Origin: an uncultured Flavobacteriales bacterium
GTDB taxonomy: Bacteria > Bacteroidota > Bacteroidia > Flavobacteriales_D > Sanyastnellaceae
Direction of reading: 5' to 3'
NCBI GenBank assembly: GCA_905478325.1
Contig: CAJQIB010000005.1
Location: 1 to 64,000, forward strand
DNA length: 64,000 nucleotides
Made by a program: the position numbers and the translations under genes. Positions 57,109-64,000 of the stretch are shown in pieces. Positions within the stretch are counted from its first letter, which is position 1; the number at the start of each line of letters is the position of its first letter. The notes beneath the pieces are model-generated. The model was not told the DNA's origin and made no database searches. It saw nothing but the letters and a program-made list of their open reading frames with translations.

Positions 57109-60100
57109 TTAGTGCACTAAGAATCTTCCAGCTGCTTGCTGTTTGCCCTGGGTTCCCACGATTTGGTATAGACCGCTTGCCCATCCACTGACATTGAAAG
57201 CCCATCCAGAGGCGTCATCAAAGGGAATGAACGTTCGGCTAAACACGGCCTTTCCCGTGATGTCAAATAAATCAATACTGATTGGCAAATGAGCGTCAAA
57301 ACCGGAACCGTTGATGTTCACGATTTCTTCGGTTGGATTCGGGTATGGAGCAAAGCTGATAGGGTCGGGGAAGCTAAAGGGTGAGCCGCCCGTTCCGGGG
57401 TCACCACCTTCTCCTTCGCAATCGGTTCCAAGTCCGAAAACCATGCTGGAGGTCCATCCTGAATTCATCGAGGCCGTTTCCATCAATTCCCCATTCATCC
57501 AAACCTCGAGCCAGCCTCCATCCCAGCCATTTACATCACTGGCAAACAAGGTGATGTCATAGCAACCGTTGGTAAGGCAAGCTGTTTGTGTTTGACTTGA
57601 ATTAGCAGCGAAAGAACTTCCTCCTACAGCAGGGATGGAGTCTTCCGAGTTGCTCAGGTACCAGCCCATGCCTAGCCCGGTAGATGGCGTCACGGTAACA
57701 AACGTTACTTCATTGGTTGGGCAAAAAGTGAATTCACACGACCCGTCATCCTCAGAAGCCGCTGGATTGTAGTTGATTGCGCCAGAATCCATGCACCCTA
57801 CGATGGCATCGGGCTGGTCATTGCAATCAGCGTCGATGCCGATGGTGAACGTTTGAAGACCCCCTGTTTCAATGGTGAAAGTCTCCGTGTTATTCTGCCA
57901 AAGTACTGTTAGAGTATTTCCGTTCCAGCCATCTCCAAACGAATCCTCAAGAACCAAATCATAGCAGCCAGCCGCTAAGCAGCCCGTCGAAAGGGAATCT
58001 CCAAGGGATTCCAAGCCAGAACCGGGGAGCCAAGATTGACCGTTTTCATCCATGAAATACCAACTGACCTCCTCAACCCAAATGACTTCATTGAGTAACA
58101 CGGATACCGTGATCAGACCGTCGCAATCGACTTCTTCAAAACAACTGCCGTCATCAACGGTCGCATTGGGGTCATAATTGGCTGCGTTTTCATCCGTGCA
58201 ACCAAGGAGGTCACCGCAATTGCCATCCAATGAAAATTGAACGAGTTCCGTTGATGCGGTGTCCTCGAGGGTGTCATAGACCAACTGCATGCCCAAGCTG
58301 TTAACATAGAAATATCCATTTCCCCAGCCTGTGTTGTTGCCGATGTTACTCATGGTGGCCGTGTAGCATGCAGAAGGGTCAAGGCACAAGTCGATGTAAA
58401 CTATGGCAAAATCGCTATAGCCTTGTTGATCATAAACGACGTTTCCAGCATCATCAGTAATGGTCAATGCGACATCCGATCCGTTGCTGAATGTGCAGAC
58501 ATATAGGGAGGCTTCGATACCATCATCACAGACAAAGGGATAGTAGCACGATCCGTTGTCGGAAGTCGCTATTGGGTTGTAGTTCTGGGCTTCTGGATCG
58601 GTACAGCCCGGGATGGTCACTTCACATCCTTCGGTGTTTATGGCCAGGGGATACGTCGCTGTGTAATCGTTGACTTCGACTGCAAAAGTCTCGCTGTTGT
58701 CCCCCCAATTGGCGAGGATGCTTCCCGCTTCGCCGGTCCAGTTGTTGCTGTAAACGGTAAAATTGTAACACCCGTCTTCGATGCAGCCTAGATAGACCCA
58801 CTGATTTGCGTCATTCAGATATTGCGCCGTTGCATACCAAGGAGTTCCGTTGTCTAAAACGATACTGAAAGAAGCGCTAGGGTAAGGATCACTGCCAATT
58901 CCTTGTCCAAAAAGAGAATCGTTGTATAACGGTTCAATAATCAATTCTAGAATTTCGCTGTTCGCGCAAACGGGTTGGTAATAACATCCCGAGTCAATGG
59001 TGGCTTCCGGGTTAAAGTTCAACGCATCTTCATCCATGCAGCCGTATACGGGTTGATCAGAACAATCACCTTCCCAATAAAAATAAGCCCCGCTGCAGGC
59101 CAATTCACACATGTTATTGAAGGTGATCATTTCTCCTGTGTAGTAATCGTAACCGCAAACCGGTTCATACACATCGTCACAAACACATGGCGCCATGCAA
59201 CTGCCGTCATCCACGGTAGCAAGCGGATTGTAGTTCATGGCGTCTTCATCGGTGCAGCCGAACACATCACCACAAGTACCGTCTACACTGAAGTCAAAGC
59301 TCCATTCGTTTGTGTTATCGGGCAAAGTGGCATAAACGATTTGAGCTCCTCCACTGTTGATGTAGAAATACCCTCCATACCAGCTGTTGTCACCAGCAAC
59401 ATTGGTCAATGTGGCGGTATAACACCCGTCGTCGAGACATACATCCTGGTAAACGATGGCGAAATTATTGAAGTCATTTCCTTCGTAAAGAATGGTTCCG
59501 TCAGCATTCGCAATGGTTAAGGCCACATTCTGACCTTCACTAAAGGTGCAGAGGTATAGCAGGCCTGCGGCTACCGAGTCCTCACAAGCATACGTGCAAC
59601 TGCCATCATCTTCTGTTGCTGCAGCATTGTAATTGCTGGCCAATGGATCCGTGCAACCTGCAGCTTCAAATTCACTGCAGTCACCGTCACTTAGAATGAT
59701 GGCTCCGACACAGTTGGCGAGGCAAAGGTTATCAAACACCATGAACGCTCCCGTCGAAAGGTCAAGCGCGCAAACCGGGATGTCCAGCTCGTTATCACAA
59801 TCGCAATCAAATACATAGCTGCATGTTCCATCATCTATCGTAGCAAGGGGGTTGTAGTTGCTCGCAAAGGGATCTGTGCATCCTACGACGGATCCGTCAA
59901 TGGGCTCTCCACAATCATTCCACCATGGCAAGACCACGCTGCTTGTATTTCCTGATTCTAGCGTGAATTCGCCAATCATTAATCCAAGTTCAGGCAGATT
60001 GAAGCTGATCGATGCTCCATTCCATCCGTCCCCAAACGAGTCATACATATTCAATACGTAGCATGTCGAATCCAAGCAGATGCTCGCTAGATATGTCTCG

Positions 60101-60282
60101 TCATTCTCATAATCACTTCCTTCGATGAGGATGTTTCCATCAAAGTCCGATACATCCCAAGAGATTTCAGCCCCCCAATTGGAAGTGGTTACTTGGATTT
60201 CGGTAGAAAAGAGACAATCATCCTGGCCTACCGCAGGGAGTTGCCAAAGGAGTATTGCAAAAATGAACAGTATCGAGCGCAT
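57109..60282 (-). CDS. Large cysteine-rich T9SS-secreted protein with Kazal-like and GCTDxxAxNYNP repeats
   Basis: 1057 residues from the ATG at 60282, which gives a signal peptide (SILFIFAILLWQLPAVG). Seven copies of a motif close to GCTDPxAxNYNPxATxDDGSC occur between about residues 134 and 850, spaced by beta-rich blocks with the motif DSFGDGWNG. Two cysteine blocks (DCDCDNELDIPVCALD and CVCDDVYEPVCGYDYYTGE) resemble Kazal inhibitor domains. The C-terminus is a T9SS type A sorting domain: FAPYPNPTEEIVNI, IDLFDITGKAVF, ASGLYQIVGTQG and GRFLVH. It is expected to be exported and attached to the cell surface. Binding partner unknown. Confidence 0.87.
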   Translation of the reverse strand: MRSILFIFAILLWQLPAVGQDDCLFSTEIQVTTSNWGAEISWDVSDFDGNILIEGSDYENDETYLASICLDSTCYVLNMYDSFGDGWNGASISFNLPELGLMIGEFTLESGNTSSVVLPWWNDCGEPIDGSVVGCTDPFASNYNPLATIDDGTCSYVFDCDCDNELDIPVCALDLSTGAFMVFDNLCLANCVGAIILSDGDCSEFEAAGCTDPLASNYNAAATEDDGSCTYACEDSVAAGLLYLCTFSEGQNVALTIANADGTILYEGNDFNNFAIVYQDVCLDDGCYTATLTNVAGDNSWYGGYFYINSGGAQIVYATLPDNTNEWSFDFSVDGTCGDVFGCTDEDAMNYNPLATVDDGSCMAPCVCDDVYEPVCGYDYYTGEMITFNNMCELACSGAYFYWEGDCSDQPVYGCMDEDALNFNPEATIDSGCYYQPVCANSEILELIIEPLYNDSLFGQGIGSDPYPSASFSIVLDNGTPWYATAQYLNDANQWVYLGCIEDGCYNFTVYSNNWTGEAGSILANWGDNSETFAVEVNDYTATYPLAINTEGCEVTIPGCTDPEAQNYNPIATSDNGSCYYPFVCDDGIEASLYVCTFSNGSDVALTITDDAGNVVYDQQGYSDFAIVYIDLCLDPSACYTATMSNIGNNTGWGNGYFYVNSLGMQLVYDTLEDTASTELVQFSLDGNCGDLLGCTDENAANYDPNATVDDGSCFEEVDCDGLITVSVLLNEVIWVEEVSWYFMDENGQSWLPGSGLESLGDSLSTGCLAAGCYDLVLEDSFGDGWNGNTLTVLWQNNTETFTIETGGLQTFTIGIDADCNDQPDAIVGCMDSGAINYNPAASEDDGSCEFTFCPTNEVTFVTVTPSTGLGMGWYLSNSEDSIPAVGGSSFAANSSQTQTACLTNGCYDITLFASDVNGWDGGWLEVWMNGELMETASMNSGWTSSMVFGLGTDCEGEGGDPGTGGSPFSFPDPISFAPYPNPTEEIVNINGSGFDAHLPISIDLFDITGKAVFSRTFIPFDDASGWAFNVSGWASGLYQIVGTQGKQQAAGRFLVH

Positions 60283-60305
60283 GGTATCTATTTGAGTAGT
60301 AACTC

Positions 60306-60313
60306 CAAATATA
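60306..60313 (-). promoter_or_regulatory. -7 promoter element (TATATTTG) of the T9SS cargo gene
   Basis: Exact TAnnTTTG match 23 nt before the ATG, with a TTG 17 nt upstream that can serve as the -33 element. Confidence 0.6.
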
Positions 60314-60354
60314 TTGAAAAGGTTGATGACCAATATGTTAAAATACAAACGACC

Positions 60355-61672: not shown

Positions 61673-61726
61673 ACGTCGCACAGGCAACCCTCGTTTGTGC
61701 TTCACGTTATAACTACGGCGAAAGCC

Positions 61727-62290
61727 ATGTCTGAGACAGAACTCCGAAATCACATTGAAGGATGCAAGCGGCAAAATCGCTCTTCCCAAAAATGGTTGTT
61801 TGACCGGTACTACCGGTTGATGTTCGGGATATGTCTCCGTTACGCATCGGACCAAGATGCTGCTCAGGACATTGTGCAAGAGGGGTATCTCAAGGTGTTT
61901 AACAACATTGAAGGGTACACTTCGAAAGGTTCTTTTGAAGGTTGGATGCGGCGCATTATGGTGAATACAGCCATTGATGCGATCCGTCGAAATAAAGCTT
62001 CCGGATGGATTCTGGCAGATGAAAACGCGATGGATTTATTGGCCAATGAAGTTGTCATTGAAGAAGATGACACGGAGTTGGACTTTACGGTGCATGATGT
62101 TTTGGAGGCAATGGAACACTTGTCTCCAGTGTACCGAACCGTATTTAATTTGGCTGTTTTTGAAAATATGGGCCACCAAGAAATTGCCAGTCAACTGGAG
62201 ATTTCTGTAGGTAGCTCGAAGTCAAATTTGGCTAAAGCGCGTAGAAATATGCGGAGTATCTTAATGAAGAGTCGAGTTTCTAATGGATAG
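61727..62290 (+). CDS. ECF-type RNA polymerase sigma factor
   Basis: 187 residues from the ATG at 61727; an earlier frame from 61670 includes the promoter and is rejected. Region 2: LFDRYYRLMFGICLRYASDQ, DAAQDIVQEGYLKVFNNIE and GSFEGWMRRIMVNTAIDAIR. Region 4 near the end: HLSPVYRTVFNLAVFENMGH and QEIASQLEISVGSSKSNLAK, a helix-turn-helix for the -35 element. Length and the absence of region 3 place it in the ECF group. Its usual regulator would be a membrane protein in the same operon; the PKD protein 8 bases downstream has a suitable layout. Target genes unknown. Confidence 0.9.
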   Translation: MSETELRNHIEGCKRQNRSSQKWLFDRYYRLMFGICLRYASDQDAAQDIVQEGYLKVFNNIEGYTSKGSFEGWMRRIMVNTAIDAIRRNKASGWILADENAMDLLANEVVIEEDDTELDFTVHDVLEAMEHLSPVYRTVFNLAVFENMGHQEIASQLEISVGSSKSNLAKARRNMRSILMKSRVSNG

Positions 62291-62298
62291 AATGACGA

Positions 62299-63648
62299 AT
62301 GATAAAGAGTAGAATTGAAGATAGAATGACTGAGGCCTTTGAAGGCTTTGAACCTGAGGTTCAAGGCCAATGGAGTGACCTGGAACAACAGTTAGATGCT
62401 CAAGGCACTGTTCAAGATGTGGACATGGTCAAACGCGTTCGCTCTGCTGAACGATTTGCTATCGGCGCAACGGCTGTTGCCGCTGGTTTGACTTTGTGGA
62501 TGGCCTATCCGCTCATTTCGGAATCCACCGTGGATACAGGAGGGCAGGTTACGACCGTGGTCATCAATGAGGTTGAAGACGACGGATTGCCGACGGAACA
62601 CATTACGCGCTTTAACAATGATTTGGGGTGGGAGTCAGGCATGAAGATGGACCCTGAAGCTCCTGTGTCAGGAAGCCACGCACGGTTGATCTTTCCAGAT
62701 ATTTCGGCGCGAACCTCTAATTCTGTGAAGATGTCTGGTGTTGAGTTGGACGCCACGGAAGATGTGGTTGAAGTAACGCGAGTTCATCTCGTGGCAGAAG
62801 AAGATTTGAATGTCATTGAACCCACTGGTGCTTCACCTGTAACGACCTTGGTCGTCGAGGAACTGAATGAAGAAGTGAATTCCGTGACACTCGTGAGTTC
62901 TGTAAAGGAAGCATGCGAAGGGACTGAAGTGGATTTTGCGTTGGAAGAGTTTATGGATAGCGGATCTATTCTTTGGAATTTTGGTGACGGTGCGTTCTCG
63001 CAAGAACGAACTCCCTCCCATGTTTTTGATCGTCCTGGTTCGTATGACATTACGGTCTCTGTGCGATCGCATGACAATGGCTTTATTCGAACTAAATCGA
63101 TTGAAGATATGATTGTAGTGCGGCCGAAACCGGAGGCTTCGATGGATTGGGAATTTGGTTTGAACAAGGGCAATGGGGTGGAAGTTCAGTTGGTAGATGC
63201 CACTGAAAGAGCCAGTAGTTCCACTTGGGTGATGACAGATCAGGGGTTGAACGGCTCACGCATCACCATCCGTGAACCGGGAGCATATCCAGTCAATTTA
63301 GTCGTAAGCAATGCCTACGGATGCCAAGATGTCGCCATGGGGAGCATTGAAATTGGTGACCGCCATGATGCAGGAGCTCCGTCGATTTTTTCTCCAAATG
63401 GAGATGGGAGGTATGATACGTTTTTACCTGAAGCTGCAAATGATGTTTTTGCTCCTTGGCTGTTCACAGTATTCAATAGTGCCGGCGAATTGGTTTTCGA
63501 AACGAATGCGGTTGATAAGCCTTGGAAGGGTGAATTAATTGGAGGCGGAAAGGCTCGCTTAGGAGCACGCTATTTTTGGAATCTAGAGCAGACGAACCGC
63601 AACGGTTCCAAGCGCATGTACTCCGATGTTGTTCGGATCGATGGTTGA
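62299..63648 (+). CDS. Single-pass membrane protein with PKD and gliding-motility C-terminal domains; candidate anti-sigma factor
   Basis: 449 residues starting 8 bases after the sigma gene. Residues 1-50 are soluble and acidic, with FEGFEPEVQGQWSDLEQQL, the pattern often seen at the cytoplasmic N-terminus of membrane proteins behind ECF sigma genes in this phylum. TM at 53-73 (FAIGATAVAAGLTLWMAYPL). The external part has a PKD domain at about 200-278 (LWNFGDGAFSQERTPSHVF), a second PKD-like domain at about 280-352, and a gliding-motility/T9SS type B-like domain from 359 (PSIFSPNGDGRYDTFLPEA). There is no cleavable signal peptide. The anti-sigma role is inferred from position and topology. 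Confidence 0.72.
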   Translation: MIKSRIEDRMTEAFEGFEPEVQGQWSDLEQQLDAQGTVQDVDMVKRVRSAERFAIGATAVAAGLTLWMAYPLISESTVDTGGQVTTVVINEVEDDGLPTEHITRFNNDLGWESGMKMDPEAPVSGSHARLIFPDISARTSNSVKMSGVELDATEDVVEVTRVHLVAEEDLNVIEPTGASPVTTLVVEELNEEVNSVTLVSSVKEACEGTEVDFALEEFMDSGSILWNFGDGAFSQERTPSHVFDRPGSYDITVSVRSHDNGFIRTKSIEDMIVVRPKPEASMDWEFGLNKGNGVEVQLVDATERASSSTWVMTDQGLNGSRITIREPGAYPVNLVVSNAYGCQDVAMGSIEIGDRHDAGAPSIFSPNGDGRYDTFLPEAANDVFAPWLFTVFNSAGELVFETNAVDKPWKGELIGGGKARLGARYFWNLEQTNRNGSKRMYSDVVRIDG

Positions 63649-63741: not shown

Positions 63742-63749
63742 TACTTTTG
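63742..63749 (+). promoter_or_regulatory. -7 promoter element (TACTTTTG) of the last gene
   Basis: Exact TAnnTTTG match 26 nt before the ATG at 63776, in the 127-base gap after the PKD gene. No -33 element at the expected distance. Confidence 0.5.
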
Positions 63750-63775: not shown

Positions 63776-64000
63776 ATGAATACATTCGAGTTGTTGTTTT
63801 CGAAGGCGTCATTTCAATTGCGATTGAAGTCACTTTTATTCGGGTTAGTGCTAGCGATGGCGGGGCAGGTAGTGCATTCTCAAGTCATGATTTCCGATGG
63901 AGGAACGGTTACGACTTGTGGCGATATTTTTTATGACGATCAGGTTGGTGCTGATGGTGATGGAGGTCCATATACCGACAATGATTATATTCTTACGTTG
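63776..64000 (+). CDS. Secreted protein, CUB-like start, cut off by the window edge
   Basis: 75 codons visible, no stop before the edge. An N-terminal signal peptide (LKSLLFGLVLAMAGQVVHS) is followed by MISDGGTVTTCGDIFYDD and DGDGGPYTDNDYILTL, the opening pattern of CUB-like domains common in large T9SS-exported proteins of marine Bacteroidota. The gene is probably long and ends in a sorting domain outside the window; that is inference. Same strand as the sigma/PKD pair but with its own promoter box. Confidence 0.7.
   Translation, partial: MNTFELLFSKASFQLRLKSLLFGLVLAMAGQVVHSQVMISDGGTVTTCGDIFYDDQVGADGDGGPYTDNDYILTL

Follow-up and report, generated by a model that had tools for sequence, protein, structure and literature searches.

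Why should a protein that is apparently held in the inner membrane, and encoded directly behind a sigma factor gene, end in a domain of the kind that labels cargo of the type IX secretion system (T9SS) for export? The question is raised by one locus of an uncultured Flavobacteriales bacterium of the Sanyastnellaceae (GenBank assembly GCA_905478325.1), within positions 1 to 64,000 of contig CAJQIB010000005.1, a 64,000-nucleotide stretch that we call the window. To our knowledge, how T9SS export is monitored in Bacteroidota is largely open. We propose that the two genes, a unit occurring in marine bacteria, encode an autoregulated extracytoplasmic function (ECF) sigma factor and a membrane-spanning anti-sigma factor with a periplasmic receptor half, a change in which would release sigma, and we put the probability of this reading at roughly 0.8.

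The two-gene layout described in an earlier note on this DNA was borne out: the sigma open reading frame (ORF) is followed after 8 bases by a gene for a single-pass protein with PKD and CHU_C matches (Table 1). The sigma ORF matches Sigma70_r2 (7.6e-19) and Sigma70_r4_2 (6.7e-15) and belongs to the ECF family by TIGR02937 (94.7 bits, cut-off 42.9); TIGR02985, NF058625 and other subfamily models stayed below their own cut-offs among the best 25 of 109 models. Its partner matches PKD_4 (8.1e-15) and CHU_C (PF13585; 2.4e-9, 37.6 bits, cut-off 27) and has a single clearly hydrophobic segment. An AlphaFold2 model built on a 53-row alignment has a mean predicted local distance difference test score (pLDDT) of 73.8, with 209 residues at 90 or above; the PKD and C-terminal domains are well modelled and separated from the membrane helix by disorder, and this tether measures 93-174 residues across 46 proteins. 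The top-ranked Foldseek matches of the PKD protein in the PDB are fragments of GhpA, the grappling hook protein of Aureispira. The acidic N-terminus stressed in the earlier note holds for the window protein (net charge -5) but not as a conserved trait: across 46 proteins, the window's included, net charge runs from -9 to +3, and acidity was rejected as the defining feature of this region. The conserved ECF-type promoter and the downstream T9SS cargo gene (Table 1) had not figured in that note.

Table 1. Features of the locus, with the associated RNA found elsewhere in the genome
Feature	Coordinates	Strand	Basis or remark
ECF-type promoter GGCAACC...CGTT (-35, -10), predicted autoregulation	61683..61708	+	pattern kept in relatives
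ECF sigma factor, 187 aa	61727..62290	+	Pfam/NCBIfam; Arg172 equivalent to RpoE Arg178 (alignment to E. coli RpoE)
Putative anti-sigma protein, 449 aa: N-terminal anti-sigma domain, transmembrane segment, acidic tether, two PKD, C-terminal-domain look-alike (pseudo-CTD)	62299..63648	+	
Anti-sigma domain (ASD), residues 1-40	62299..62418	+	helices 2-14, 25-35; Glu7, Glu29 coupled to sigma
Transmembrane segment, residues 55-73	62461..62517	+	hydropathy; AlphaFold2 helix 43-68
Disordered acidic tether	62518..62886	+	pLDDT <50 over residues 70-172
Two PKD (Ig-like) domains, residues 197-354	62887..63360	+	invariant Cys206, Cys342
Pseudo-CTD, residues 360-449: CHU_C / type B-like fold without RWG	63376..63645	+	
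1280-aa PKD/CHU_C T9SS cargo, start; gene runs past the window	63776..64000	+	
ECF-type promoter, then predicted structured RNA of ~90 nt	G000:C4:76654-76772 (L239, L308; same genome, outside the window)	-	behind an OmpR-like response regulator gene

The pairing of the two genes was followed through three overlapping sets of loci: relatives, named genomes (some of whose records are contigs of the first set) and a class-wide sample; L, C, G and f numbers are our handles for loci, contigs, genomes and families. A search of 60 genomes, the window's own included, gave matches in 59, cargo proteins counted too. The first set comprises 50 loci, namely the window's and 49 from relatives, with strong matches in frames of about 400-510 residues, one per genome except for two in G049; ORFs outside 380-520 aa or below 60 bits were excluded, and L039 was left out, its gene having been missed by the ORF caller; L153, a contig of equal length in the named set, has the pair. 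A sigma gene lies directly upstream on the same strand in 46 of the 50, with gaps of -26 to +22 bases, the four exceptions being three contig edges (L041, L043, L070) and a protein without the N-terminal domain (L072). Since the whole 36-row alignment held no stretch conserved enough to serve as a query, ten closer rows were used. For the named genomes the best 80 of 407 candidate stretches were read, and counts were made with a six-frame profile, the greedy ORF caller having missed genes (sigma next door in 54 of 77). The N-terminal domain and the PKD/CTD half occurred together in 67 of these loci, with sigma adjoining in all 67; nine long frames (674-2356 residues) came with neither the N-terminal domain nor a sigma gene in the locus, in L111 sigma is present but the N-terminal domain is unmatched, and the stretches of L098, L148 and L165 are truncated at their start. 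These records are mostly Flavobacteriales, Crocinitomicaceae, Cryomorphaceae and unplaced Bacteroidetes metagenome-assembled genomes, with one isolate, Cryomorpha ignava; a few assemblies with other labels (such as 'Euryarchaeota', 'Salinisphaeraceae' and 'Chryseobacterium gleum') may be mislabelled records.

Across the class, the N-terminal domain was matched in 129 of 198 genomes, and 70 of the 71 loci read (70 fetched, plus one on contig C49 of the window's genome) adjoin a sigma gene, L234 being the exception. By our own typing from profile score and length, these 71 comprise 30 of PKD/CTD type, 6 shorter CHU_C-like proteins, 6 of about 250 residues in which no domain is clear and 29 others, mostly barrel-like to judge from the appearance of the C-terminus. 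Routine separation of the sigma and PKD genes was looked for in the three sets and not seen, and the co-occurrence of the pair across genomes agrees with the earlier proposal. As a separate observation, some sigma-adjacent proteins carry two to five tandem matches to the N-terminal domain (L067, L068, L206, L214, L216-L220, L224, L228, L236), and such a protein might hold several sigma molecules.

In most relatives about 40-60 residues precede the transmembrane segment and carry a conserved motif of the type F/W-E..lK..l...E.P....W..l...L; Trp25 is almost invariant in this ASD, which is modelled as two short helices. Mean-field coupling analysis of 162 unique sigma/anti-sigma pairs of all C-terminal types (effective number 122; 20 shuffled pairings) ranked sigma172-ASD7 first, at 2.55 versus 1.90 for the best within-protein coupling at least 5 columns apart and 1.35 for the shuffled maximum. 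Sigma18-ASD29 came second at 1.65, and all further couplings fell below the shuffled maximum. Positions 172 and 7 hold Lys or Arg together with Glu or Asp in 144 of the 162 pairs (K-E 75, R-D 37, R-E 23, K-D 9), and positions 18 and 29 hold Arg-Glu in 74. On the sigma tree, column 172 ranks first of 131 for changes on the same branch as ASD7 (mean 6.2; next 5.0). The coupling to region 4 is strong and that to region 2 weaker.

The residue of E. coli RpoE that aligns with Arg172 of the window sigma is Arg178, which pairs with Asp11 in helix 1 of RseA, an anti-sigma contact described in an ECF/class I study (PMC7406223; here and below, papers are cited for the portions of their text that were accessible). 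In class II CnrY, helix 1 goes to sigma region 4 and the last helix to region 2 (PMC7406223), and the window sigma matches CnrH at E 1.6e-4. On the strength of the couplings, the Arg178 alignment and the CnrY helix scheme, we take residues 1-40 for an anti-sigma domain that is short and class II-like, claiming no homology to CnrY. A predicted contact of ASD helix 1 with sigma region 4 is supported, and helix 2 probably contacts region 2. The interpretation of the genes as a sigma/anti-sigma pair is therefore backed both by their adjacency in relatives and by coevolution that predicts contacts between the N-terminus and sigma.

The outer half bears on the question with which we began. The earlier note had found it odd that a domain usually directing export across the outer membrane should sit on a protein of the inner membrane, and the sequence evidence speaks against an export signal here. 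TIGR04131, the stricter type B model, stays below its cut-off for the window protein (23 versus 35 bits); among 36 anti-sigma proteins, CHU_C is matched at E <=0.01 in 28 and TIGR04131 in 22. When 40 cargo CTDs were aligned with 45 anti-sigma CTDs, all taken from one set of loci, Arg-Trp-Gly (RWG) proved invariant in the cargos, and the anti-sigma CTDs share an invariant Trp and an invariant Pro two columns past a conserved Phe. Over the three sets, RWG was found in 87 of 88 cargo frames longer than 600 residues versus 0 of 128 frames with the ASD, a count that dropped frames open at a contig end and set aside 15 shorter CTD frames without an ASD match, 5 of them with RWG. Because the motif is absent from all 128 copies, the domain is better read as a look-alike fold that stays in the periplasm than as a misplaced export signal. 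It would probably serve as a periplasmic sensor and not as an export tag, and the suggestion that the PKD/CTD half senses surface or secretion state is plausible. The pair also suggests that a CHU_C match is no sure sign of export when the protein is anchored in the inner membrane; on such proteins, labels such as 'T9SS substrate' or 'gliding motility-associated' could mislead.

Autoregulation is suggested by the promoter. Of 44 loci with sufficient DNA ahead of the sigma gene, the window's included (L024 and L026, whose upstream DNA is cut, were excluded), 41 have GGCAAC-N15/16-CGT there, and in 33 of the 41 the end of the -10 box lies 15-21 nt from the start codon, as chosen by alignment. 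Among the exceptions, L038 and L040 have AGCAACC at the equivalent place, and the start codon of L050 is probably misassigned. In the named set the pattern occurs anywhere on the coding strand in 60 of 67 loci, versus 20 of 67 for the backward pattern. Upstream of five other sigma-like genes of the window's genome GGCAAC was not found; those on contigs C30 and C12 have GCAACC.

Other users of the promoter were sought with a strict pattern (GGCAACC-N15-CGTC) and its reversed form as control. Sixteen more distant genomes held 52 sites versus 16 for the control (our sums). Among the 31 genus sites that were read, 7 are intragenic and the other 24 lie, by our own reading, before sigma genes (4), genes for DUF5684 proteins (11) or a predicted intergenic RNA that follows a response regulator gene (9). 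Assignment to DUF5684 is by Pfam for L241, L285 and L294, one of them from the genus, and ten genus proteins were assigned by the likeness of their first residues. The small DUF5684 membrane protein follows the promoter across families (L241 1051-1494, L248-L250, L254, L255, L259, L263-L265, L272, L285, L292, L294). In 30 loci of the 16 non-genus genomes, sites stand before sigma genes, three DUF5684 proteins and five secreted-looking proteins (L281, L282, L293, L297, L299); the remaining ones fall at the RNA, inside the response regulator gene or where no gene is evident. No mention of DUF5684 was found in the open literature searched, and no T9SS machinery gene was recognized behind any promoter site read.

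The predicted RNA consists of a variable-sequence hairpin, an unpaired core and a terminator-like hairpin with a T-rich end. Its core is TGGTTTCAAAATTTTCCTTGCAGGTTT in several other genera and four bases shorter in the window's genus, and this 4-nt difference led us to reject a conserved peptide. Twelve sequences share 17 pairs, 9 of which are changed on both sides in at least one sequence, where changes are counted by sequence and not by event and the rows fall into two groups. The copy in the window's genome folds at -32.3 kcal/mol (z -3.5). The RNA is not in Rfam: a search with 11 loci returned a single sub-threshold match, away from the element. A covariance model detected it in 43 of 60 genomes, the window's own included, that is in 20 of the 22 genus members, 14 of 15 from the family's other genera and 9 of 23 from elsewhere in the order (one of these, L344 in G045, being doubtful), and in 6 of 198 genomes of the class sample. 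After 3 of 53 matches had been dropped (19-24 bits, on the opposite strand of stronger ones), a script located GGCAAC-N15-17 and a CGT-like box immediately ahead of 43 of the 50 read. By eye, further promoters are shifted in L341, L346 and L354, or carry a one-base variant in L317 and in one of two L351 matches; L344 and L338, with neither promoter nor core, were taken as chance matches. Three of the class matches, from another order (family f21 in the tool's grouping; L336, L337, L339), have the promoter and a variant core, and these three genomes also carry the ASD in frames of 416-435 residues, two of PKD/CTD type (L189, L192). Separately, L283, L287, L288, L290 and L304, all from other genera, have an extra GGCAACC...CGTC site toward the end of the response regulator gene, and the RNA's own promoter follows some 80 bases later.

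The following mechanism would connect these elements. Residues 1-40 would hold sigma at the membrane, as coevolution supports, with the PKD/pseudo-CTD part staying in the periplasm as a receptor. A periplasmic change would cause the anti-sigma factor to be lost, probably through proteolysis, and the freed sigma would use GGCAAC-N16-CGT promoters to express its own operon, the DUF5684 membrane protein and the structured small RNA, the last with a presumed role in the response. Our guess for the most likely input, prompted by the likeness of the sensor to the end of T9SS type B cargo, is the state of such cargo or of its outer-membrane partners; the 1280-residue cargo encoded downstream may be the relevant client.

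Several results weigh against this proposal. The two N-terminal helices are modelled with only moderate confidence (pLDDT ~61-71), and no solved anti-sigma chain matches the ASD by sequence (none of the four matches at E up to 1 is to an anti-sigma factor). The shuffle control removes phylogeny, and just two couplings top its maximum, the second of which, sigma18-ASD29, is the weaker one, with Lys or Arg facing Asp or Glu in 80 of 162 pairs. What the absence of RWG means for export is something we infer from sequence. The downstream cargo gene has no GGCAAC-type promoter in the window. Strict sites in the 22 genus genomes are in weak excess over the reversed control (61 versus 46, our sums), 31 of the 61 were read, and in the window's genome a looser pattern gave fewer sites than its control (10 versus 26). 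Since site counts hardly exceed the reversed control, the regulon rests on the position and recurrence of sites and not on their number. No significant complement to the RNA core was found in 41 cargo leaders (smallest p 0.025; 0.305 for the window's own), and 12-nt core complements were not in excess in 22 genomes, with 24 versus 31 control matches (our sum) once 20 of 44 matches, being the RNA itself by position, are discounted.

The closest precedent is the Dma anti-sigma factors of Bacteroides. Dma1/Das1 and Dma2/Das2 of Bacteroides thetaiotaomicron share with the window pair a sigma neighbor, an ASD, a transmembrane helix and a long disordered tether, a likeness of layout, whereas Dma ends in an outer-membrane beta-barrel and the window protein in two PKD domains and a pseudo-CTD (PMC13088901). 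This precedent suggests that the window protein might likewise span both membranes, its CTD-like domain docking in trans into an outer-membrane T9SS partner (a PorP-like barrel or the translocon) and the whole reading mechanical or assembly state. Type B CTDs bind PorP-like barrels (PMC9143113), the tether would in principle be long enough, and the same N-terminal domain occurs on sigma-adjacent, apparently barrel-ending proteins. One of these belongs to the window's genome, where an ASD profile built from PKD-type proteins alone gave low-E matches to the window protein and to a 495-aa protein on contig C49 (E 2.6e-4), a third match (E 0.7) containing a stop. The C49 protein lies behind a sigma gene (L085 3531-5581), and its apparent barrel was judged by eye from the C-terminal sequence and from a sub-threshold OMP_b-brl match (17.2 bits, cut-off 28.7). 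Against such docking stand the absence of RWG from all 128 copies and the position of the genome's five PorP-like genes, all off the window's contig, and we regard it as unlikely, though it deserves serious attention.

An elaboration of the proposed receptor that we hold to be rather doubtful is mimicry of cargo: a decommissioned type B sorting domain would compete with cargo ends for a T9SS partner, and a backlog of cargo would displace the decoy and thereby switch on sigma, the RNA and DUF5684. If true, the system would be a Bacteroidota counterpart of the sigma-E/small RNA envelope response, and its conservation would extend beyond a single order.

It is also conceivable that the PKD protein binds sigma as a positive co-regulator or scaffold, since the data from sequence speak to contact and not to regulatory sign; however, the top predicted contact falls on a residue that anti-sigma factors use to cover sigma region 4, and Dma1, which has a front half of the same layout, is a repressor of its sigma (PMC13088901), which makes this a distinctly improbable view. 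That the protein is ordinary type B cargo of the T9SS whose signal anchor stays uncleaved, lying beside a sigma gene by chance, is hardly credible, for although its CHU_C score, the CHU_C matches in its relatives, the cargo-like PKD domains and the GhpA matches would suit such cargo, it adjoins and coevolves with sigma, most relatives carry the motif-bearing residues ahead of the membrane segment, and it lacks both RWG and a TIGR04131 score above the cut-off.

Returning to the proposed anti-sigma factor, the pair is known in kind through its Dma-like layout, while the sensor domain and the RNA are new as far as could be found; an anti-sigma factor with a PKD/pseudo-CTD outer half was not found in the open-access literature searched. 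PorA of Porphyromonas gingivalis, a T9SS CTD protein, feeds into an ECF sigma factor by acting on PorXY-SigP, and a protein with a CTD-like end is proposed to feed into one here; PorA, however, lies at the surface and works by way of a two-component system, and here the CTD-like domain belongs to the presumed anti-sigma factor itself (PMC7712824). With the class II pair CnrY/CnrH, the window pair shares a short two-helix domain, and it may share the pairing of helix 1 with region 4 and, given the weaker coupling there, perhaps of helix 2 with region 2 (PMC7406223). The outer part is a different one, and no homology of the ASD to CnrY was found by sequence.

In enteric bacteria, sigma-E drives the envelope-stress RNAs MicA and RybB. 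The window system resembles sigma-E/RseA in its membrane anti-sigma factor, in the proposed sigma-driven small RNA and in the equivalence of Arg172 to RpoE Arg178, and differs from it in the anti-sigma domain, the sensor domain and the RNA. In Flavobacterium psychrophilum, ECF-type SM6 promoters precede an ECF/anti-sigma pair, the small RNA Rfp11 and T9SS genes, and they share a CGT -10 box with the window promoter (PMC9723704); the conserved RNA may be related to Rfp11, a likeness by description only. Homology of the locus to a SprC/SprD/SprB operon was set aside, by description only, as the accessible text lists the F. psychrophilum operon remF-remG-sprC-sprD-sprB-sprF without a sigma gene (PMC9723704). 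What the window pair adds is an anti-sigma factor with a sensor apparently derived from a cargo sorting domain, together with a specific predicted contact (Glu7-Arg172), a promoter usable in reporters and a conserved small RNA that has no Rfam entry.

With TIGR04131, the 1280-aa cargo encoded downstream reaches 35.7 (cut-off 35). A TAnnTTTG box, found by eye at 63742-63749 ahead of its gene and following the consensus quoted in PMC9723704, suggests a housekeeping promoter of the cargo gene's own. By our count the next ORF is a same-strand frame of at least 745 residues in 31 of 46 loci, and in two other genera (L046, L049) a terminator-like stretch was seen by eye between the anti-sigma and cargo genes.

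Two further observations concern the same genome. On contig C30 (L022 1079-4269), a sigma gene is followed by genes for three proteins, a single-pass one of 184 aa, one of 308 aa and one of 412 aa whose CHU_C-like end carries RWG; upstream of this sigma gene stands GAGCAACC, which resembles the window promoter. On the minus strand of the window, at 57109-60348, a 1079-aa protein has repeated segments of the type GCTDP.A.NYNP and, by eye, an end like a sorting domain; it is perhaps a T9SS cargo of another type.

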